From NCBI GenBank assembly GCA_903850885.1, contig CAINMU010000039.1, positions 1-37,168 on the forward strand: a stretch of 37,168 bases of DNA. Reading direction: 5' to 3'. Shown one piece after another: positions 24,979 to 35,511 of this stretch. Position 1 is the stretch's first letter, and every line of letters begins with the position of its first letter. Under the pieces are notes generated by a model that was not told where the DNA came from, did no database searches, and saw only the letters and a list, made by a program, of their open reading frames with translations. This DNA comes from an uncultured Opitutia bacterium (GTDB lineage Bacteria; Verrucomicrobiota; Verrucomicrobiia; Opitutales; UBA953). The position numbers and the translations under genes were made by a program.

Positions 24979-25857
24979 ATGAAGACACTTGCCCTTCTCT
25001 TTTCTGTTCTGGCCCTCGGAGCTTACGCTGCCGATGAAGCGAAGCCTGTTGCCGCTCCGGCCGCACCCGTTGCCGCTGCACCAAAAGACGTGCAAGTCGA
25101 AGTACTCGACGTCGATGGCAAGCGCTTTGTCCTCGTGAAGAACATCGGGTCCGCCGAGGAGTTCGCGAATTTCGAACAGAATGTTAAGATTATCTCGCAG
25201 GAAAAAGCCGACGCGACTCAGGTTAAGCAGCTCTCGGAATTAGCGCTCACCACCCCGGAACGCGAAGCGCGTAACCGCGAGCTGGAAGGCAAATTAGCCC
25301 GCCTTCAGGCCGACAACACCGCCATGGCCAAGGCCTACGGTTTCGACCTGAGCCGCCAGTATACCGTCATCCCAACCAAGCTTCTGATCCTCACCGCCCT
25401 GTCCAACGACGACTATATCAAATTAGCCGCTGGCAAGGACTTCAAAGCTGAATCCGTGATCAACGGTGGGGACAATAAGAAATTCCTCCTGAAAGACACC
25501 GTGACTGGGGCCGTTGATGTCGAAAGCTTTAAGCTCCTGGTCCAACGCGTCCTTGAAAGCCGCAAGGCCCTCCAGCAACTGGTAGACCTGCAACCTCGCC
25601 TCACCAAGGAAGAAGACAAAAAGAAGGTCGAAGAAGCTTTAAAGAACGCCCAAAGCGAAGTGAATAAAGCCCTTGAAGAATTCAAAAAGGCCCGGACTTA
25701 CGACCTGCCTAACGAACTCACCATTCAGACGGCTGAAGCCAAACTCTACACCCTGCTCAGCGACGAAGAGAAAAAGAGCCTCCAAGCCCAAGTAGACTCC
25801 AAAAAGGATGAGGCCAAGAAGGACGAAAAACCCGTCGCGACCCCAGAAAAGAAATAA
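24979..25857 (+). CDS. Exported protein, first of a paralogous pair; function unknown
   Basis: A 292-residue protein with a signal peptide (about residues 1-17, cleavage near AYA-AD), an Ala/Pro linker to about 36, a helical central region, and a Lys-rich tail. I recognise no named family. It is clearly homologous to the next gene: both contain an LTTxEREA segment, a GKDFK or SKDFKEE segment followed by an NGGD/RGD turn, and a C-terminal stretch of the form 'L..R.T.EE.KK....L..A.....K...E' then 'Y.L...Y/T.I...EAK...LL..EE...LQ'. The central and C-terminal parts are rich in Glu, Lys and Leu and probably form long helices or coiled coils. The start follows GCACCCTC with no Shine-Dalgarno. Confidence 0.75.
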   Translation: MKTLALLFSVLALGAYAADEAKPVAAPAAPVAAAPKDVQVEVLDVDGKRFVLVKNIGSAEEFANFEQNVKIISQEKADATQVKQLSELALTTPEREARNRELEGKLARLQADNTAMAKAYGFDLSRQYTVIPTKLLILTALSNDDYIKLAAGKDFKAESVINGGDNKKFLLKDTVTGAVDVESFKLLVQRVLESRKALQQLVDLQPRLTKEEDKKKVEEALKNAQSEVNKALEEFKKARTYDLPNELTIQTAEAKLYTLLSDEEKKSLQAQVDSKKDEAKKDEKPVATPEKK

Positions 25858-25886: not shown

Positions 25887-26732
25887 ATGACCACCGCAGC
25901 CCAAACCCCAGCTCCGACCGAAGCCCCTAAAGGTCCAGTCATCGAGCTCCTCCCTCTCGGCCAAAACTTGGCCCGAGTCGTCCTCACGATCTCTAACCAA
26001 GGTTCGCTCGCTCGCTTCCAGCAGGAAGTCGGCACCCTCGGTCAGCAGTTCGCCCGCATCCAACAACTCCAGCAGCGCATCCAGTCCGCCCTCACCACGG
26101 TCGAGCGCGACGCCCTGACGAAAGTCGGCGAATCCGAAGTAAAAGACTTCAACGAAAAGGACGCCCTCTTCGCCAAGGTCTGGAGCTTCAGTATCCCCGC
26201 CCTCGCCAATCGTCAGACCGCTTTGGTCAACACCTCTCTGCGCTTGATGGCGGTCATCTCGGAAGAAGAAGCCGTCAAAGCCCGCGCCTCGAAAGATTTC
26301 AAGGAAGAGCAGATCGTCATCCGGGGTGACCGTCGTCTGCTCCAGACCGCTGAAATTCGCGGCTTGGAGTTCGTCGTTCAGTTCGAACAATTCGTCAAAG
26401 TCCTCCAGGCTCGTCGCGATGCCTTCCTCCAGCTCACTGAGTTGCTGAAGCGCGCCACCACCGACGAACAGAAGAAGAGTATCCAGACTCAGCTCGACCA
26501 AGCCACCGAGTTGCTCGATAAGGGCAACAAGGAGATGGCCGAAAGCGTCGGCTATTCGCTCACCCATAATTACGAAATCGAAGTACTCGAAGCTAAGTTC
26601 GTCTTCCTCCTGAATCAGGAAGAAGTGAACCAAGTCCAGAATCTCTTCGCTAACAGCCAGCAACAGCAGGCGGCCGCGGCCACGCTCGACGCCCCTAAGG
26701 TCGAAAATCGTCTGACTGAAAAGAAGAACTAA
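25887..26732 (+). CDS. Second paralogue of the pair, no signal peptide; function unknown
   Basis: A 281-residue helical protein homologous along most of its length to the preceding exported protein, which ends 29 bases upstream. It lacks a signal peptide: the N terminus is a Thr/Ala/Pro-rich stretch (residues 1-16) followed directly by VIELLPLGQNLARVVLTI, which aligns with the VQVEVLDVDGKRFVLVKNI region of its neighbour. No alternative upstream start adds a signal. The Gln-rich segments (QQLQQRIQ near 53-60, SQQQQAAAA near 261-268) are absent from the first copy. Either it is cytoplasmic, or it is exported by another route. It is closed by a strong terminator. Confidence 0.75.
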   Translation: MTTAAQTPAPTEAPKGPVIELLPLGQNLARVVLTISNQGSLARFQQEVGTLGQQFARIQQLQQRIQSALTTVERDALTKVGESEVKDFNEKDALFAKVWSFSIPALANRQTALVNTSLRLMAVISEEEAVKARASKDFKEEQIVIRGDRRLLQTAEIRGLEFVVQFEQFVKVLQARRDAFLQLTELLKRATTDEQKKSIQTQLDQATELLDKGNKEMAESVGYSLTHNYEIEVLEAKFVFLLNQEEVNQVQNLFANSQQQQAAAATLDAPKVENRLTEKKN

Positions 26733-26790: not shown

Positions 26791-27741
26791 CTAGAAGAGC
26801 TCGCCCTGCTTAGGTTCGGTCGACTCTGGTGGTGCCGGGGGTGCTACGATCTTTGATTCCTGAACGCTGCGACCGTGCTTGGCTTGGTAGCGCTTAAGGG
26901 TCGAAAACATCTCCATGGCTGCCAAAAACTCTTCGACTCCGGCGATATCTTCGGGCGGAGATGCTCCGGGCTCGAAAGCGTAATCCGTCCGGAAAGTGAC
27001 TAACCCGAGATTGCTCCGCATCCGACCTGCTTCGCTTAGGATCTGCTCTCGGAATCGTTCCGGCTGAATCGTTCCAGCCGCGGCCAGGACTCCTTCCAGG
27101 CTGCCGTATTCCATCAGCCATTTGACCGCCGTCTTAGGGCCCACCCCGCGCAGGCCTGGAATATTATCCGAGGTATCGCCGACCAAGGCGAGGTAGTCAG
27201 CGATCCGCTGCGGCGGAACGCCAAACTTCTCCGTAACCCCGGCCGCGTCTAGCCGCCTCCAACCCAAAGCTGGATTCGCCGTGGGCGGGGGTGCTAACTG
27301 TAAAACTTTTTCGCCCACGCATTGTCCGAAATCCTTATCCGCGCTGACAATAATGCATTCCTTACCCGAACCCGAGAGCACCTTGACCGCTGTGGCGATC
27401 AGATCGTCTGCCTCTACCCCACGCTGCTCCACCACTTGGAAGCCGAGCAAGGCGGTCAGTTTTTTGATTTCAGGCAATTGCTGCACGATCTCATTCGGCG
27501 TCTCATCACGCTGAGCTTTGTATTCCGGCAAGACCGCCAAGTGACGATCCGAGCCCCCTAAGTCAAAAAAGACGACGCACCTATCTGGTTTCTCGGTTTC
27601 CCGTAATTCCATCAGGGTCTTGATCCATCCGTGCAAAGCCCCAGTTGGAAACTGATCCGATTGCCGGCGCAGATGAGAGCGCTCCATGGCAAAGTGACTT
27701 CGGAAAACTAAGTTGAATCCGTCAACGAGCAACCAGCGCAT
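26791..27741 (-). CDS. Stand-alone 5'-3' exonuclease (Pol I N-domain/FEN family)
   Basis: A 316-residue protein equal to the 5' nuclease domain of DNA polymerase I without the polymerase. Visible features: LLVDGFNLVFR at 4-14 (Asp7 in metal site 1), GVEADDLIATAV near 108-119 (the paired Asp residues), IVSADKDFGQ near 131-140, and the helix-three-turn DNA-binding region LVGDTSDNIPGLRGVGPKTA near 188-207. It should trim flaps or RNA primers during replication or repair. The protein ends in QGELF, which resembles the sliding-clamp-binding pentapeptide. It could complement, or partly replace, a Pol I exonuclease elsewhere in the genome. The gene is flanked by two terminators and is likely monocistronic. 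Confidence 0.92.
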   Translation of the reverse strand: MRWLLVDGFNLVFRSHFAMERSHLRRQSDQFPTGALHGWIKTLMELRETEKPDRCVVFFDLGGSDRHLAVLPEYKAQRDETPNEIVQQLPEIKKLTALLGFQVVEQRGVEADDLIATAVKVLSGSGKECIIVSADKDFGQCVGEKVLQLAPPPTANPALGWRRLDAAGVTEKFGVPPQRIADYLALVGDTSDNIPGLRGVGPKTAVKWLMEYGSLEGVLAAAGTIQPERFREQILSEAGRMRSNLGLVTFRTDYAFEPGASPPEDIAGVEEFLAAMEMFSTLKRYQAKHGRSVQESKIVAPPAPPESTEPKQGELF

Positions 27742-27831: not shown

Positions 27832-30800
27832 TTACTTTGCAGGCTCGGCGGCTGGCTGGGAGGGAGCCGACGAGGAGGTCGGAGTCACGGCTTCAATCGG
27901 TTCGCGATAAACTGCGCCGCCCGGGGAGGTGAGGATTGGATTCGAGAAGGTCGTACCGGCGCGCATACCAGGGTGAGAACTACGGAGCGTAGCACCACCG
28001 GGAGAAACCAGGTTCGCGGTGATGAAGATCATCAAATTGCGCTTGGTCGTGGTTTTCCCAGTAGAACGGAAAGCCGCACCGATAAGAGGGATGTCTCCTA
28101 AGACCGGAACCTTGTCGTTCACCGTCTTTACTTCTTCGCGAGTCAGACCGCCGATCACAACCGTAGCCCCGTCAAAGACGGTGACTTCGGTCGTAACTTC
28201 ACGCGTGGAGAAGATAGGCTGGAAGAAACCAGAAGGCACTGAGACCGTCATGCCCGAAGCGATAGCAATCGAAGTTCCGCCGTATTCGACGAAGCCTTCG
28301 AACTCGGTCACCTTCGGCTTAAGATTTAGGGCAATCGAGTCGTCTTGGCCAACCGTCGGCGTCACTTCGAGAGAGACCCCGACTTCCATGACGGTGAAGT
28401 CCTGAGGAGTACCCGCGGTGATTGCCACGCTACCCGAGACAGCGCCTGCTCCCGCAGCCGTTGCCGCCGTACCGGCAGCAACCTGCGACTGGGTATCGCC
28501 ATAAGATTGAGGATAACGCAGCAATTGGGCCACCTTGATCACGGCTGTCTTTCCGTCGAGAACCGTCAAGCTGGGCGAAGACATCAAATCCGTGCCGCTT
28601 TGTTGTTCGACCGCCCGGAGGAAGACCGATAGGTCAAAACTTCCCATGGTTCCGATCATACCATTGTAAGTACCCGTAGCGCCATTGATGCCGGAAATTC
28701 CGCCAAAGTTAGGCTCGGTCCCACCCGTATTGACAGATCCAGGAACGGTGGGCGCCGTGTTGACGATAGGGGTCGAACTTGCGATTCCACTTATGGAACC
28801 ATTATCAAAAATGGCCCCTTGGCGGGCGGAGGAAGTCGAACCAAAGGTCGAGTTCAACGAACGTAGATTCGTCTGGGCTCGGACGGTGTTGGTAAACGTG
28901 CCGTTTGGCAGGCCGGTGGTCGCATCGATATTAGGTGTCTGAGTCGAAAGACGGAAGTTGGTCGATAGCTCGTTCAGCGTATTTTGGGCTACTTCGATGA
29001 ACTTAGCCTCGATGTGGACCTGCTTAATATCCGAGTAGCGACGGAGAATATTGCGAACGCGATCGAGATTCTTGCGGTTCTGGGTGACGATGAGATTGGT
29101 CCCGTCGTAATTGAGCTGGGCACCGGTCACACCTTCGAATGGGACGCCCGAACGAACTAAGAAGCTCTTCAAGGCCTCATTGCGAGGGCTGCCGTCTCCG
29201 CCCGCGCTCGCACCCGCACCCGCCGCACCACCGAACGGGCTCGCACCTGCGGCCGGCGCAGCACCCGCCGCACCACCGCCCGACATGCCGGTCATTTTCA
29301 TTTCAGCGCCACTATTAAGACTGAAGAATTCAGTTTCTAAATCGTTGGATCCGGAATCAGGACGGATTTCAACGATGCCTTGGCTGATGGTAAAAGTGAA
29401 GTTAGCCTGCTTGGTGATGATTTCGAGCGCCTTCTCGAGCGTCAGGTTACGCAAGCTGGTATTCGGGATCAACGGATTCTTACGTTCCGGATCCATCACG
29501 ACCATATTCACGCCTTTTTGGTCCTTGTCGTAAGTCTGTCCGGCGTTGTTCAGCTGCTGAATCGCCCGGTCCAAGGTCATCTCACGAATGGTCAATTCAG
29601 GTAAGCTGATCGAACGGAGTTTTTCGAGGACGGGATCAGTGGTAGAAACGCCGCCTTCTTTGATGCTTTCGCGATTAAATACTTCTGGGAGCTTCCAAGT
29701 TTCATCGAGCAGCTCGAGCAACTTACCCTTGGTCACGCCGCGATTCCATTGACCAGAGTTCTCCGAAAGGATTTCCCGGATCCGGACCTGATAGGCCTTG
29801 GATTCGGAATTATTTGGCTGGTACTGAAGTACTTCGCGGTAGGCCTCGAGGGCGCCTTGGTAGTCACCGTATAGGTAACGCGCGCGGCCTTTCACCAAAA
29901 GTTCGTCCACCTTGTCGTCCTTCGCCCGTAAGCCTGGCGAGACGTCATCGACATTGCGATAGGTGGGATTCATTTTCTTCGCGCTGAATTCTGCCCGGAG
30001 CCGGCGGGCGCTCGCATCATCCGCCCCCATGAGTTTTTCGTATTCGCGGATTTTCTCGTCTGCTCGGCTCATTTCGCGAGCTTCCATGGCGACCAGCGCA
30101 CGGCGGGCCAAGGCACCTGCTTTGGCTTCCTTGATCCGTGCCTTATAAGTTGTTGCGGAAATATTCTCAGGCAAGGCTTTGTCCGCGCGCTCGAGTTCAC
30201 TGATTGCCTCGTCAAGGTTCGCGGCTCCGCCCTTGCGGATTAGCGATTGGGCCTTGGAGAGGGCGTCATCGCAGTTTGAAAATGTCGTTTTCGAAATCTG
30301 GCGCAAACGGCTAAGTTCGTCGCTAGGATTGACGGCCTCGCGCCTCAAAATGATATCCTGCTTGGCTAAAGAGATTTTGTCTCGGTAAGGCTGGGCGGCA
30401 CTCGTGTTCGGCAAGGCAGAAAATGCGCCGTCTAATTTGGCCAACGCATCCGCAAAATTTCCATCTTTGGCTAACTGATTGGAGTAAGCAGTGGCCGCTT
30501 CGACTTCGGCAAAGAGTTTTTGGTGATCACTGACCACCGCATCCAAGGCGCTTTCAGGCTTTGCCATGACGACCGGAGCCGCCGGGGCCGTCGGGGCTGG
30601 AGCGGCGGCGGCATCTTCGGCCTTTTTCTTTTCCATGGCAGCGGCCTCAATCGCAGCCTTGACTGCATCGCGGCCTTCCTGGGCCCCGACATCCTTGTCA
30701 TCAATTTGCAGGATTTGCTCATACTTCTCTTGAGCAAGTGCCAGACTACCCTCTTCGCGCGCTTTCAGCGCCTCGATGAGAAGCTGGGTTTTCTTCTGGA

Positions 30801-30891
30801 CGGGATCGGAATCCTGGGCGACCAACGTGCCAGCGATGACGATGGCGATAATGATGGCCCAAGTAAATGGGGTGCGGGTATTTTTCTTCAT
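27832..30891 (-). CDS. PilQ/GspD-type secretin with N-terminal TPR region (Amuc_1098-like)
   Basis: A 1019-residue outer-membrane secretin. Residues 1-25 are a signal peptide. Residues about 30-380 are helical with TPR-like units (for example at 330-365) and an Ala/Pro-rich linker near 95-110. A secretin N0/STN-like domain follows at about 425-512, then a Gly/Ala-rich low-complexity linker (about 536-568), an N1/NolW-like domain at about 572-640, and the beta-barrel secretin domain, whose end reads VPVLGDIPLIGAAFRS followed by a KRNLMIFITANLV strand, the classic PilQ/GspD signature. Secretins form the gated outer-membrane ring for type IV pili or type II secretion. Being last in a pilMNOPQ-ordered operon points to the pilus role. 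The long TPR front and the linker are unusual relative to proteobacterial PilQ. Confidence 0.92.
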   Translation of the reverse strand: MKKNTRTPFTWAIIIAIVIAGTLVAQDSDPVQKKTQLLIEALKAREEGSLALAQEKYEQILQIDDKDVGAQEGRDAVKAAIEAAAMEKKKAEDAAAAPAPTAPAAPVVMAKPESALDAVVSDHQKLFAEVEAATAYSNQLAKDGNFADALAKLDGAFSALPNTSAAQPYRDKISLAKQDIILRREAVNPSDELSRLRQISKTTFSNCDDALSKAQSLIRKGGAANLDEAISELERADKALPENISATTYKARIKEAKAGALARRALVAMEAREMSRADEKIREYEKLMGADDASARRLRAEFSAKKMNPTYRNVDDVSPGLRAKDDKVDELLVKGRARYLYGDYQGALEAYREVLQYQPNNSESKAYQVRIREILSENSGQWNRGVTKGKLLELLDETWKLPEVFNRESIKEGGVSTTDPVLEKLRSISLPELTIREMTLDRAIQQLNNAGQTYDKDQKGVNMVVMDPERKNPLIPNTSLRNLTLEKALEIITKQANFTFTISQGIVEIRPDSGSNDLETEFFSLNSGAEMKMTGMSGGGAAGAAPAAGASPFGGAAGAGASAGGDGSPRNEALKSFLVRSGVPFEGVTGAQLNYDGTNLIVTQNRKNLDRVRNILRRYSDIKQVHIEAKFIEVAQNTLNELSTNFRLSTQTPNIDATTGLPNGTFTNTVRAQTNLRSLNSTFGSTSSARQGAIFDNGSISGIASSTPIVNTAPTVPGSVNTGGTEPNFGGISGINGATGTYNGMIGTMGSFDLSVFLRAVEQQSGTDLMSSPSLTVLDGKTAVIKVAQLLRYPQSYGDTQSQVAAGTAATAAGAGAVSGSVAITAGTPQDFTVMEVGVSLEVTPTVGQDDSIALNLKPKVTEFEGFVEYGGTSIAIASGMTVSVPSGFFQPIFSTREVTTEVTVFDGATVVIGGLTREEVKTVNDKVPVLGDIPLIGAAFRSTGKTTTKRNLMIFITANLVSPGGATLRSSHPGMRAGTTFSNPILTSPGGAVYREPIEAVTPTSSSAPSQPAAEPAK

Positions 30892-30916: not shown

Positions 30917-31858
30917 TTATTTTTTTAGCGGGGTTTTCTGAGTGGAAAGGGGTTTAGCGGCTGGGACCGGAGCCGCGACGGTCAACGCCTCGGTAAATGT
31001 TTTCTTCCCCTTCTTCGGGTTCGGCGTGAAGGTCTTATCAACGGTCACGGTCTTGGCATCCAAGTCAATGCCTTTGACCACGTAGAGGGCCCCTTTATAA
31101 TTGAACTTATCCCCAACCGCGTGAAGTACCCAGGTATCGGCCGGATCGGAAGTTGAGGCTAAATAGAGGTCGGTTTTATTCGGAAATTCTAAAGGCTTAA
31201 TGTCGTCGATTTCGACGACCTGCCCAAGTTGTTTATCATCAAGGCGTAGAACATTTCGGGTGGTCGTAAAGCCCTCGGCATCTTTTTCCTTTACCGATTT
31301 ATAAGAAAGAGGCGTGATGGGGACCGTCGCACTAAGCGGCTTCTTAATCTTACAGCGGTCAAAGTATTCCTTGGTGGCGATATTTTCGATTGAGAATTCC
31401 CGATCCTCTTCCTTCCCGGAGCGACCTGCCATCGTCGACCTTAAGACGTAGGGATATTTGGGGTGTTCGGCGTTCACCAGCGCGACTCCGAACGGAGGCA
31501 AAGGTTCGATCTTTCGGCGACTTGGGACGTAGTCTTTCGTCGCCGGATCCCAAACGACATCGATGGTCGTAAATAAATCGTAGTCCCAACTGTCTTCATT
31601 TTCCTCCGGGCTTAACCAATCCTTAATATTATCAAGCAAGGATGCCCGCGGCGTCGCCGGATACTCGATGCCCTTAGGGGACGCTAAAAGCTGCGGGATT
31701 TCGACGGCGGCGACCTGTTCGTCTAAGACAATCGGCTTAATCCATTTCGGGGTAAGCTCGGGCGCAATACCATTAAGCAAGCAACCAACCGTAACCGCCA
31801 AGGTAAGCAGTACGCTAGCCGAGATAATGAAAATGAGATCCTTACGAGGAGTGTTCAT
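30917..31858 (-). CDS. Amuc_1099-like membrane-anchored protein in the PilP position
   Basis: A 313-residue protein with one N-terminal membrane helix (about residues 9-29) and a periplasmic domain rich in beta strands. There is no lipobox in a usable position: the Cys at 26 lies inside the helix (TVGCLL) and could in principle be a lipobox-like site, but the context is not convincing. Residues about 225-285 (VVEIDDIKPLEFPNK then YKGALYVVKGIDLDAKTVTVD) show a repeated small beta unit. I recognise no named domain. By gene order (PilMN, PilO-like, this gene, PilQ) it occupies the PilP slot, whose product links PilNO to the secretin; sequence similarity to PilP is not evident. It lies 11 bases after the PilO-like gene. 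Confidence 0.65.
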   Translation of the reverse strand: MNTPRKDLIFIISASVLLTLAVTVGCLLNGIAPELTPKWIKPIVLDEQVAAVEIPQLLASPKGIEYPATPRASLLDNIKDWLSPEENEDSWDYDLFTTIDVVWDPATKDYVPSRRKIEPLPPFGVALVNAEHPKYPYVLRSTMAGRSGKEEDREFSIENIATKEYFDRCKIKKPLSATVPITPLSYKSVKEKDAEGFTTTRNVLRLDDKQLGQVVEIDDIKPLEFPNKTDLYLASTSDPADTWVLHAVGDKFNYKGALYVVKGIDLDAKTVTVDKTFTPNPKKGKKTFTEALTVAAPVPAAKPLSTQKTPLKK

Positions 31859-31869
31859 GGCTGGTAGGC

Positions 31870-32961
31870 TTATTTCTTGGCTTCGCCCTCAGGCGGAGCT
31901 GGTTTTTCGTCAGGGATACTAAGGTAGTCGATTTGGACGATGAACTCGGAGGGAGTTTCTTTAAAGACGAGCGTTCGCACATCCTTGGGCGTGGCACCTG
32001 AAGTCCGGGCTTTGCTCGCGCTGGCCGCCGTATCTTCAGCAAAGAACCCAGGGAGGTTAGTCACGGCCGGAGCCGTAGGAGCACCAGGCGCGGCGATGAT
32101 GCCGATGGCTTTGGTGATTTCTGGGCTGGGGAGGCGGACCTCCACGGCGGTGATGGCGAAAGCCCGTCCGGAATTTCTTATTTTATTAACAAAGGTTCGC
32201 AGGGTCGGGGTCGTTCCCGCAAAGCGCAGCCGGAAGGATAAGGTCTCGACCAGGCCCATGCGGTCAAAGGTGCGGGTCGGGAAAAATTCGTCGTTTTCAT
32301 TCCGGCTGCTTTCATTCTCGGGGCCATAGGTACCGGCACCTGGTTTACCTTCTGGAATCAACACGTAAGTCTCGACTGGCTCACGGTCAACCGAGAGCAG
32401 GAGCAGCGGTGACGCCGCCGGGCGCGATTCTACCAATTGGCGGTAAAGGAAATCGATGATTAGCCGCTGCTGGTCGACCCGCTGGAATTCGCGCTTAGGC
32501 GAGGTGCCAGGGTTGCGGATATAACGGCGGAAGCCGAAGTCGCATTGATCATTAGGCAAAATCTTTACGTCGTGGTCGACCGCCAGCTTCTTCCATTCGT
32601 CAACCGACTGCTTCAACGTCGCATTCAACTCGTTGGAATTAGTGGATTGTTTGCCACGAATAATCAGCTCCGGATTGCTCGCGATGCTGGTACGCAAGGC
32701 CGCCAACTGTTCGTTCAAGTCTGCCAAGTCCTTAGCCGCATTCTTGACGTTATCATCCGTCAGGGAAATCGCCCGGTCGTCATGGGCGAAGACATGTCCG
32801 GCCAGAAGCGCCGCAGTCTCCTTCTTGACCTTTTCCAGGGCCAAAGCCGTCTTGCTATGGTCGAGCACGGAAACCACGGCGTAGTATAATCCGGCAATGA
32901 AGACCAACCCAACCAGGGAAAGCCCGACGTAAAAAAGTTTGTTTTTCTTGAAATTGTCCAT
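31870..32961 (-). CDS. PilO-like, Amuc_1100-like membrane-anchored protein
   Basis: A 363-residue protein with a short cytoplasmic N terminus (MDNFKKNK), one membrane helix at about 9-32, a coiled-coil-forming stretch (about 35-130) and a periplasmic alpha/beta domain. This is the architecture of PilO and of Akkermansia Amuc_1100, which is encoded in a gene cluster of the same order and whose fold is PilO/PilN-like. The C-terminal 80 residues are Ala/Pro/Thr rich (an insertion about 285-320) before a last strand pair ending SEFIVQIDYLSIPDEKPAPP (given as residues 337-356). It should pair with the PilN part of the upstream fusion in the inner-membrane alignment complex. It starts one base after the fusion stop. 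Confidence 0.72.
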   Translation of the reverse strand: MDNFKKNKLFYVGLSLVGLVFIAGLYYAVVSVLDHSKTALALEKVKKETAALLAGHVFAHDDRAISLTDDNVKNAAKDLADLNEQLAALRTSIASNPELIIRGKQSTNSNELNATLKQSVDEWKKLAVDHDVKILPNDQCDFGFRRYIRNPGTSPKREFQRVDQQRLIIDFLYRQLVESRPAASPLLLLSVDREPVETYVLIPEGKPGAGTYGPENESSRNENDEFFPTRTFDRMGLVETLSFRLRFAGTTPTLRTFVNKIRNSGRAFAITAVEVRLPSPEITKAIGIIAAPGAPTAPAVTNLPGFFAEDTAASASKARTSGATPKDVRTLVFKETPSEFIVQIDYLSIPDEKPAPPEGEAKK

Positions 32962-32962
32962 C

Positions 32963-34669
32963 TTAGAGAGCTGTGTCCTTACGGATGACCAAAGTTAAGG
33001 TGATTTTGGGAGAGTTAGCCGGGTTGAAATTCTGCTTGATGTCAGCGTCGGGAATTTCCGCGATGAACGGCGACTTGCGCAGGACCGCGAGCAACTCTTG
33101 TTCGCGGGTGGAATAAGGCTTCTTGGCGAAATTCGAGCCCGGTGAAATTTCAGGCAAAAGGAAACGCGCCGTGAGGACGATTTTGGTGACTTCGACGGGC
33201 GGTACCACAACCGTCCCAGGTGGCGAAGGCTCGACGGACGTGACGGCTGGGGGCACGACGCGCTTGACCTCGAGTTCTTCAATCCACGTATTCTTACAGC
33301 TGGAGACGCGAGACTGGAGGTCGGACAGGAAGGCGGGCCAATTAGGCCGACTCAGCGCCACATCCTCTAATTTTTTGTTAATCGCAAAAACTTCCGTGGC
33401 CTTTTTTCGTGTTTCTTCGATCGCGGCCTGATGGCCTCCCAACTCGGTTTTGCGCTTTACCAATTTGGCGGAAAGTTCTCGGTTAGTATCTGCGCCCTTA
33501 TCAAATGCCCACCAAATCGGCCAAGGAATCAAGGCCATCAGAAGGGCGGCGACCAATAAACCCGGCTTGCGACCATCAAAGGCAAGCTGGGCCGCGATAT
33601 CGCGGGGGATTAGGTTAACCCCCGTCACATGCGTGAGCACCAATCGAGCGGCTTCACCGATAACTTCCGAAATTTGGTGACGGGCGCGCTGCATGTTCTC
33701 CGGATCAACATCGGCACCGAGGGCCAAGACAGAGGAGGGATCAAAAGGCTCAACGGGCATCCGCAAGGTTTCGCAGAGTTGCTCTGAAAGGCCCGAGACC
33801 AGCGAACCACGACCGGTCAGCAAAATGCGGGTGGGCTGACGGCCGGCGGTTCCGCGACGCACATTGATCAACCGACGATTGATATCTTGGGTTAAGCGGC
33901 GAATGAAGCTTTGGGCATTCGCCTGCAGGATGGCGACCTGTGGGTCCGACTCCGGCAAATGGATGACACCCGAATAATAGCCGACCTTGATGGCTTCGGC
34001 ATTCATGAAGGGTTGCCCGGTATTATCGGAAACACCCTGGGTCAGGAGATTACCGCCGATATTGGCCGTCTGGATATTGGAACCGCTTGGGCCGATGAAA
34101 CTGAGGGTGGTCGAACGGGCGCCGATGTTGATGATCAGCACTTCTTCCGTAGCCGAACCGCCGGCCAGCAGGAAGGCCTGGCTGTCGAGCAACGGAGCGG
34201 CCTGAACAGATAATGGCCGCAGGCCAGTGGCGGCAACGAGGTTGGCAATCTTGCTCGCCATCTCGGTGCGCAGAGCAAAAAGGAGGACCTCGGCCTCAAC
34301 CCCGTCGGAGGCCATCACCTGGCTATCCCAAATTACCTCATTAAGTGGGTAAGGAATGGCATTCTGCGCTTCAAAGGCGACGATCTGAGCCTGACGTTGG
34401 CGCTCAACCTGAGGCACCTTCAAAGATTTCTGGAGGAGCAGAAAGCTTGGAGCGATGACCGTGACTTGTCCCGAAATGCCGTAAGTGGTGACCAGGTTGC
34501 CCAAAGCACCCATCGCTGTGTTCAGCCACTCGTCGTCATTAGTCAGACCGGGGGCGATTTCTTCGACGTAAAATTTTTCAAGCACCAACCCTTTGGATTG
34601 GACGCCAAAAAGTGAGACCGAGACATGTGACGCGGCGAGGTTTACAATAGTGGCCTTCTTCTGGCTCAT
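32963..34669 (-). CDS. PilM-PilN fusion protein of the pilus alignment complex
   Basis: A 568-residue protein. Residues 1-345 are a PilM-type actin-like ATPase: EAQNAIPYPLNEVIWDSQV near 100-118 is the PilM signature ('E...yIPfpleev..D..v'), VLIINIGARSTTLSFI near 177-192 is the phosphate-2 loop, and TRILLTGRGSLVSGL near 280-294 the adenosine loop. Residues 351-357 read VNLIPRD, the PilN peptide ('INLLP') that in two-protein systems inserts into PilM. A membrane helix follows at 369-387, then a coiled coil (about 395-430) and a ferredoxin-like PilN domain to the end. So PilM and PilN, separate in most pilus systems, are one chain here; both sides of the join read as intact. Confidence 0.88.
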   Translation of the reverse strand: MSQKKATIVNLAASHVSVSLFGVQSKGLVLEKFYVEEIAPGLTNDDEWLNTAMGALGNLVTTYGISGQVTVIAPSFLLLQKSLKVPQVERQRQAQIVAFEAQNAIPYPLNEVIWDSQVMASDGVEAEVLLFALRTEMASKIANLVAATGLRPLSVQAAPLLDSQAFLLAGGSATEEVLIINIGARSTTLSFIGPSGSNIQTANIGGNLLTQGVSDNTGQPFMNAEAIKVGYYSGVIHLPESDPQVAILQANAQSFIRRLTQDINRRLINVRRGTAGRQPTRILLTGRGSLVSGLSEQLCETLRMPVEPFDPSSVLALGADVDPENMQRARHQISEVIGEAARLVLTHVTGVNLIPRDIAAQLAFDGRKPGLLVAALLMALIPWPIWWAFDKGADTNRELSAKLVKRKTELGGHQAAIEETRKKATEVFAINKKLEDVALSRPNWPAFLSDLQSRVSSCKNTWIEELEVKRVVPPAVTSVEPSPPGTVVVPPVEVTKIVLTARFLLPEISPGSNFAKKPYSTREQELLAVLRKSPFIAEIPDADIKQNFNPANSPKITLTLVIRKDTAL

Positions 34670-34695: not shown

Positions 34696-35403
34696 TTAGC
34701 GAGTAGGCACGTCCTCGCGGATAAACTCCGGCGAAGGCGGTACGACCACGGTATCCGCATAAAGAACCAGATACTGCGGGCGCAAGATCCCGGCCGAAAC
34801 GCCGACTCCGCGATCAGCAGCGTCTTTGGCGTTATCAAAATCAGCTTTTTTGGAAATATCCTTATGAACAGCCCGGGCATGATCGGCGGCGATCTTCCCA
34901 GCGGCGTCAAATAAAGGGACTTCATTGCCGCCGACCTCAATTTGGACGAAATAATAGTCAGGCTCCTTGTGCAGGACGTCGCGCTTGACGATATCTCCGG
35001 GCAGGTAAAAAACAACGGAGCGAGGCTGCTGCACTTCCATGGTCAAAACCGTCGCGCTCGCTCGATAGTAATTCCAGTCTTTGGCATCTTTAGAGGCATT
35101 CTTGTAAATTTGCGTCACGGTTACTTTTATTTTATCCACATAACGCTTGTTCACGATGGCTTTCGGATCGGCGCTGGCGGGGTTATAGTTCGCTTGCAAT
35201 TCAACCTGCATCCGATTCCAGGGGTAGATTTGACCGCCCAATTTAGTTTGGGTGAATTTCACATCTTTTACAGAGACGGGGGCCTTGGAACCCGCTCCTT
35301 TGACCGGCGTAGTTTCATCCCCCTTGGCGGCTTGGCCAAAGGCACCCAAGGTGGTGGTGAGTACCGCTAAAATAATAGCGGAAATAACTCGGAAATGGGG
35401 CAT
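34696..35403 (-). CDS. Exported Amuc_1102-like protein, first gene of the pilus operon
   Basis: From the ATG at 35403 this is a 235-residue protein with a signal peptide (about residues 1-22, cleavage near AFG-QA). The mature domain is beta rich and of Ig-like appearance: VKDVKFTQTKLGG, then YVDKIKVTVTQIYKN, then a C-terminal strand region QYLVLYADTVVVPPSPEFIRED. It occupies the place of Amuc_1102 in the Akkermansia cluster, a protein I recall as Ig-like in structure; the match here is by position, size and general pattern. An in-frame ATG at 35427 has GGAGG only one base away, too close to use normally, while 35403 follows CTCCCC like many starts in this window. Exact role in pilus assembly is unknown. 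Confidence 0.7.
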   Translation of the reverse strand: MPHFRVISAIILAVLTTTLGAFGQAAKGDETTPVKGAGSKAPVSVKDVKFTQTKLGGQIYPWNRMQVELQANYNPASADPKAIVNKRYVDKIKVTVTQIYKNASKDAKDWNYYRASATVLTMEVQQPRSVVFYLPGDIVKRDVLHKEPDYYFVQIEVGGNEVPLFDAAGKIAADHARAVHKDISKKADFDNAKDAADRGVGVSAGILRPQYLVLYADTVVVPPSPEFIREDVPTR

Positions 35404-35460
35404 GGGGAGTTCTTTGTTAGTCGGCATTCCTCCTCTGGCAAATGCAAAAGAAGGAACTAA

Positions 35461-35511
35461 AGTTACAGTCAGTAACTGCAAATAACTTGCAATTGGTAGC
35501 TGTTTTGCTAC
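35461..35511. promoter_or_regulatory. Three adjacent inverted repeats in a divergent promoter region
   Basis: In the 120-base gap between the pilus operon and the metal importer there are three dyads: AGTTAC-N5-GTAACT (35461-35477), TGCAA-N5-TTGCA (35477-35491) and GTAGC-N6-GCTAC (35496-35511). The first two have the spacing of dimer-binding operators. A zinc regulator (Zur) would fit the importer, but the motif is not one I can match firmly. No convincing -35/-10 pair was found. Confidence 0.42.

Follow-up and report, generated by a model that had tools for sequence, protein, structure and literature searches.

A probable natural fusion of PilM and PilN at a pilus locus of the Amuc_1098-1102 type in Verrucomicrobiota

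What does a pilus locus encode when PilM and PilN, two proteins in the type IVa systems represented by 2ych, 3jc8 and 5eou, appear as one chain? The question is raised by a gene of an uncultured Opitutia bacterium, located on a stretch of 37,168 nucleotides (contig CAINMU010000039.1 of assembly GCA_903850885.1, positions 1 to 37,168) that is called the window here. The gene is read from the minus strand at 32963..34669, starting with an ATG at 34669 and ending with a stop codon at 32963-32965, and its 568-residue product shares with the type IVa pair the PilM fold, the PilN motif, the membrane helix and PilN homology. The first-pass annotation had described it as PilM and PilN joined in one polypeptide, and both domains are indeed found in this single frame. 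We consider it very probable that the gene encodes a natural PilM-PilN fusion, predicted to act as the inner-membrane coupling subunit of an alignment complex for type IV pili, of the kind encoded by Amuc_1098-1102 in Akkermansia.

The N-terminal 345 residues (33635..34669, minus strand) had been assigned to PilM, and the Pfam family PilM_2 (PF11104) bears this out with 72.2 bits on residues 11-338, above its gathering cut-off of 27. The subfamily model TIGR01175 (pilM) scored 86 bits, below its cut-off of 133, and NF045709, the Amuc_1101 equivalog model, scored 253.4 bits over residues 3-469, below its cut-off of 650. Judged by these models, the fused protein is PilM-like and not a member of TIGR01175, and its score under the NF045709 cut-off would make it a relative of the Amuc_1101 family, not an equivalog member. 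Under an 80% identity limit, 60 sequences were kept from the loci, and four divergent ones (L054-L057) were left out to give a 56-row alignment, from which an AlphaFold2 model of the full chain was made (mean pLDDT 92.7, pTM 0.72). The model matched PilM 2ych_A with a Z of 33.5 (rmsd 2.7, 324 residues), so the fold predicted for the N-terminal part is that of PilM; it also matched 3jc8_Ma (Z 33.0, rmsd 3.0, 338 residues) and 5eou_B (Z 32.2, rmsd 3.5, 341 residues), the latter with model residues 4-356 on chain residues 10-366.

The second half discloses its identity only to profiles. As a single sequence, the fused protein gave no match to the Pfam PilN family (PF05137) at E<=1, and three of the 56 family members matched this family at E<=0.01. 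When the whole-length profile of the 56 members was run against the PDB, it identified PilM as well and found M. xanthus PilN (3jc8_Na) with an E of 1.8e-10 from profile position 350 on, and a profile of the C-terminal part only (A3) found the same chain with an E of 8e-10, the alignment beginning at the PilN N-terminus and pairing NLLP with NLLP close to it. The row after 3jc8_Na was a designed coiled coil (E 0.0039), and T. thermophilus PilN was reached at E 0.5 only, amid coiled coils. The PilN identity is thus invisible with one sequence, because only the profiles gave PilN matches. The full-chain model runs from the actin-like domain through an extended stretch (344-355), a helix (356-379) and a long helix (382-440) to a helix-strand-strand-helix-strands arrangement, and the order of secondary structure in the C-terminal model is compatible with the ferredoxin-like periplasmic fold of PilN. 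The fold list of the full chain held no separate PilN or GspL row; it was filled by matches to the actin-like domain and is uninformative on the C-terminal fold. A PilN-like character of the C-terminal half is nevertheless supported by the family profile, as had been suggested for the periplasmic domain, and we place the PilN-like periplasmic part at residues 390-568 (32966..33502, minus strand).

Between the two halves, six residues past the PilM domain as originally noted, lies VNLIPRD (residues 351-357; 33599..33619, minus strand), the putative PilM-binding motif of the PilN N-terminus, which aligned with INLLP of the PilN peptide in 5eou and with NLLP of M. xanthus PilN. Its L353 and P355 are invariant in the 56 aligned sequences and position 352 is Asn in 48 of them; L056 and L057, both outside the alignment, are without the motif Pro. 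As a control for chance, the pattern [VI]NL[LIVM]P arose anywhere in 158 of 20,000 shuffles of the fused protein, and it has one match only in the stop-to-stop frames of the window (36,481 residues). The motif is followed by a transmembrane helix, as at the N-terminus of PilN and as the first reading had it: residues 371-389 (33503..33559, minus strand) form the 19-residue window with the highest hydropathy in the protein (2.01), partly covered by the model helix 356-379, and in 55 of the 56 members a window of at least 1.4 occurs inside the 45 residues after L353. Spacing is just as regular. From L353 to P369 there are 17 residues in every member, and from G338 to L353 there are 16 in 50 members and 15 to 23 in the remaining six.

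The constant linker bears on where the peptide docks. The first-pass annotation proposed that the fusion makes the PilM-PilN contact intramolecular, and the model is consistent with this, since residues 344-355 are extended and free of secondary structure with a pLDDT of 93-95. A useful comparison is 5eou, the crystal of a laboratory-made PilM:PilN1-12 fusion, in which the PilN peptide was placed on the C-terminus of PilM at a near-equal spacing (17 residues by a hand count on the alignment, versus 16 here), although that chain lacks the membrane and periplasmic parts of the window protein. Our sequence profile also extends through its INLLP. Taken together, the confident linker, the 5eou_B alignment up to residue 356 and the constant spacing lend indirect support to cis docking, and VNLIPRD likely packs intramolecularly on the PilM domain. 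The same data do not distinguish cis from trans, and the alternative of a domain swap, in which the peptide docks on a neighbouring subunit and the fusion links a ring, must be weighed here. A short linker of constant length suits both geometries, and a one-chain prediction cannot reveal swapping; on the other hand, the single-chain model is confident on a linker and motif without secondary structure, as would be expected for packing on the same chain, and we regard the swap as possible but unlikely. The fixed 1:1 stoichiometry that had also been claimed does follow from the fusion, but it is not distinctive and makes a weak argument, because published models with separate PilM and PilN (PMC8389850, PMC13039148) already use the two in equal numbers.

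With cis docking as the preferred reading, the fused protein would do the combined job of PilM and PilN with their contact made permanent, the NLxP peptide clamping on the PilM domain of its own chain. As the contact is in principle reversible where the proteins are separate, regulation in the fused system would have to open the clamp and not release PilM. The PilM domain would contact PilB/PilT motors encoded elsewhere in the genome, while the periplasmic part would pair with the PilO-like product of the next gene, which in turn would be linked via the third gene product to the secretin.

The gene order supports this scheme. Five closely spaced genes, the fused gene among them, run on the minus strand from 35481 to 27832. 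Next to the fused gene, at the PilO position, is a gene for a 363-residue Amuc_1100-like protein (31870..32961, minus strand; P0002), with 36.2 bits against NF038287 (cut-off 180). Its single-sequence search of the PDB gave no match, and its model (pLDDT 71.6) superimposed on Amuc_1100 6lad_D (Z 18.7, rmsd 2.2, 164 residues), on PilO 2rjz_A (Z 9.3, rmsd 2.7, 98 residues) and on PilO 5uvr (Z 7.4, rmsd 3.4, 95 residues). The third gene (30917..31858, minus strand, 313 residues) holds the PilP or Amuc_1099 position. It had no Pfam or NCBIfam match, its profile A4 found nothing in the PDB at E<=10, and no Pfam family was common to more than one of 19 members of its family; with no profile, PDB or Pfam support, calling it PilP is a guess from position. 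The PilQ/Amuc_1098-like secretin gene (27832..30891, minus strand, 1019 residues) matched PF00263 with 129 bits and NF042912 with 354.5 bits (cut-off 750). Upstream of the fused gene, at the Amuc_1102 position, is a gene of 261 residues counted from the listed TTG (34696..35481, minus strand), the true start of which may be further in; it had no Pfam or NCBIfam match, and since its profile A5 gave a galectin at E 1.2 as its single PDB match, an identification with Amuc_1102 by homology is unsupported. The gene order is that of the Amuc_1098-1102 locus, with the NF038287 and NF042912 scores both below their cut-offs. In the 21 wide loci viewed (out of 30), size-matched frames follow downstream in the same direction as the fused gene, a comparison of position and length only, and in L033 and L034 the downstream arrangement is less clear. 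Elsewhere in the same genome, contig C65 has two PilB-like frames, one PilT-like and one PilC-like frame, contig C5 has a second motor and platform gene and four pilin-like genes, and N-methylated pilin-like genes were also located outside the window.

An older precedent for a one-chain arrangement is GspL of the type II secretion system, long known as the counterpart of PilM plus PilN (PMC3815138, PMC3724824). In GspL as these papers describe it, one chain crosses the membrane with a single helix, which connects an actin-like domain in the cytoplasm to a ferredoxin-like one in the periplasm, and these two parts are said to correspond to PilM and PilN (PMC3815138). The architecture of the window protein would also suit a GspL, and GspL-like fused proteins do occur in the phylum, for example in L198 (420 residues) and L199 (531 residues). 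However, the best sequence matches of the window protein are PilM families, and neither the Pfam nor the NCBIfam scan gave a GspL family at E<=1; it matches the whole PilM fold, its PilM domain aligning full-length with PilM, keeps the NLxP motif, and has as its neighbours a protein of PilO/Amuc_1100 fold and a secretin. Furthermore, a separate type II-like cluster with a GspL-like frame of 376 residues lies on contig C5 of the same genome. A GspL identity is disfavoured by the PilM family matches, the full-length PilM alignment and the fold of the neighbour, and seems to us quite improbable. The 376-residue frame (L203:11011-12138, on G000:C5) was recognised by position and by eye and matched no family model. 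The GspL-like proteins of L198 (4436-5695) and L199 (2798-4390) have a reduced cytoplasmic part, and L198 carries LNLLPESW before its membrane helix.

It could also be envisioned that translation of the fused gene begins at a second, internal site as well, for example at the GTG of codon 348, and so yields PilN by itself alongside the full-length chain. GTG codons do stand at 344 and 348, shortly before the motif, but residue 348 is Val in one of the 56 members only and most often Pro (27/56), no start residue is conserved there, and the codons inspected by eye held nothing resembling a Shine-Dalgarno sequence; such a second product is very hard to credit.

The least probable explanation, that a sequencing or assembly error fused two genes, we take to be negligible: separate pilM and pilN genes do occur in the phylum (L195, L207, L208, L209, L211 and L212), but the junction is read through in the near-identical genomes L002, L003 and L004, excluding a stop hidden at residues 345-350, and both domains lie in a single frame in 60/60 loci of the relatives, 30/30 of the phylum set and 79/80 of the named set. 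The last group comprises records titled Verrucomicrobia, Opitutae/Opitutales, Puniceicoccaceae and the like, with one 'bacterium', and its only exception (L165) has a frame that ends at the contig end. Having been fetched with PilM or fused queries, these loci do not sample pilus systems at random.

Searches of whole genomes give the same picture of a widespread fusion. Among relatives, 79 of 95 genomes matched, the window genome counted in, and 76 of the 79 have an open frame of at least 500 residues; the three shorter ones are two frames that begin at a contig end (G018, G022) and a divergent frame of 436 residues (G075). In the phylum, 365 of 387 genomes matched PF11104, and 148 of the 150 frames among the phylum matches listed are at least 500 residues long, the two short ones (G446, G334) running off their contigs past the start of the PilN part. 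In the class, 132 of 141 genomes matched the Amuc_1101 model, 20 of them above the cut-off. The rarity implied by the first reading is therefore not borne out. Across the phylum the fused gene is the rule at this locus, and GspL shares the overall architecture, which makes the finding informative and not surprising. L054, L055, L057 and L200 are fused proteins of 430-520 residues in which the PilM match leaves out a large stretch of the window protein (about residues 200-340), a gap that looks like a partial loss or strong divergence of the actin-like domain.

The count of fused against split genes that had been called for has a second side, as split pairs exist elsewhere in the phylum. A PF05137 search of 115 phylum genomes matched 35, and its 42 rows consist of 40 frames of 390-582 residues and two short ones. 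Of the two short ones, L195 is a true split pair, with a PilM of 359 and a PilN of 210 residues; L196 is a fused gene truncated by a contig end and not a split pair. Ten further regions, picked from weak or PilN-type matches, were inspected. Eight of them (L205-L212) have a stand-alone PilM of 357-404 residues, with a separate PilN frame found by profile in five and not found in L205, L206 and L210, and the other two (L213, L214) have GspL-like fused frames. In the genomes with a stand-alone PilM (G105, G468, G471, G486, G492, G495, G518 and G540), without exception, a frame of 582-674 residues also gives a strong match of the Amuc_1101 type. Some genomes of the phylum thus have a second system, with PilM and PilN encoded apart, beside the fused one. 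The split PilN proteins of L195 and L205-L212, which come from other families of the phylum, begin with NLL and no Pro, as in LNLLHE, LNLLAE and VNLLRK. A tree built from 67 PilM domains has a branch (support 100/99) with the 58 fused domains on one side and the 9 split ones on the other, and since a single branch divides them, one origin of the fusion would be compatible with the data, though not proven by them; the tree program flags long branches, above all that of split_L195.

The closest known relative is the Amuc_1101 family of Akkermansia (NF045709), which shares gene order and one-chain length with the window locus. Its member L194 (617 residues, 732.7 bits, above the NF045709 cut-off) has PilM followed by a PilN-profile match at 359-542, with IDLEP where the window protein has VNLIP. 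In the window, the Amuc_1098-1102 cluster of Akkermansia is present in a distant form. Amuc_1101 was described as a predicted FtsA by Ottman et al. (PMC5332112) and as 'MUL2B, a PilM protein' in PMC13174399. The latter reports that 266 of the 352 non-muciniphila Akkermansiaceae genomes carry MUL2A and MUL2B of the locus, and it treats amuc_1099 and amuc_1100 as uncharacterized; Amuc_1100 was labelled PilO elsewhere (PMC11573778). Among open-licence papers, as far as their available text goes, we found none in which Amuc_1101, or any PilM from Verrucomicrobiota, is named as a fusion of PilM with PilN. The present analysis adds three points: the second half, with its binding motif, has PilN identity; it is conserved throughout the phylum; and it coexists with split systems.

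Throughout the phylum, a single chain joins a cytoplasmic actin-like PilM domain, the conserved NLxP peptide, one membrane helix and a C-terminal part with the coiled coil and fold of a PilN-like protein, each of them shown or well supported. This overturns no view of pilus assembly. It does show that the second half of the Amuc_1101-type 'PilM protein' is PilN-like, and it places Amuc_1100, studied as a host-active factor, beside the fusion in the inner-membrane PilO position. Genomes with both fused and split systems provide a natural experiment on whether pilus dynamics require the release of PilN by PilM.

The usual phosphate-loop motif of the PilM domain is DxG. The loop of the window protein (residues 10-18; 34616-34642) and its residue 181 depart from this motif. 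Across the 56 members, Asn outnumbers Asp both at residue 10 (31 against 21) and at residue 181 (29 against 26), and residue 12 is Gly in 47 and Ala in 8, the window protein being one of the eight. In the genus of the window genome the loop reads NLAAS, with Asn for Asp and Ala for Gly. Nucleotide binding of the PilM domain may be altered. A wider scenario, in which the contact became permanent once, before the classes diverged, as a clamp in cis, with the PilM domain in the window's genus turned into a nucleotide-independent mechanical strut converging on the way GspL works, and with fused and split systems serving different pili, is a speculation that we regard as doubtful when taken whole.

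Beyond the secretin, the next gene (26791-27741) resembles a 5'-3' exonuclease by eye, and frames with a similar start stand in the same place in several relatives. Two adjacent genes further on (24979-25857 and 25887-26732) have products that look alike by eye, and a tandem duplication is possible.
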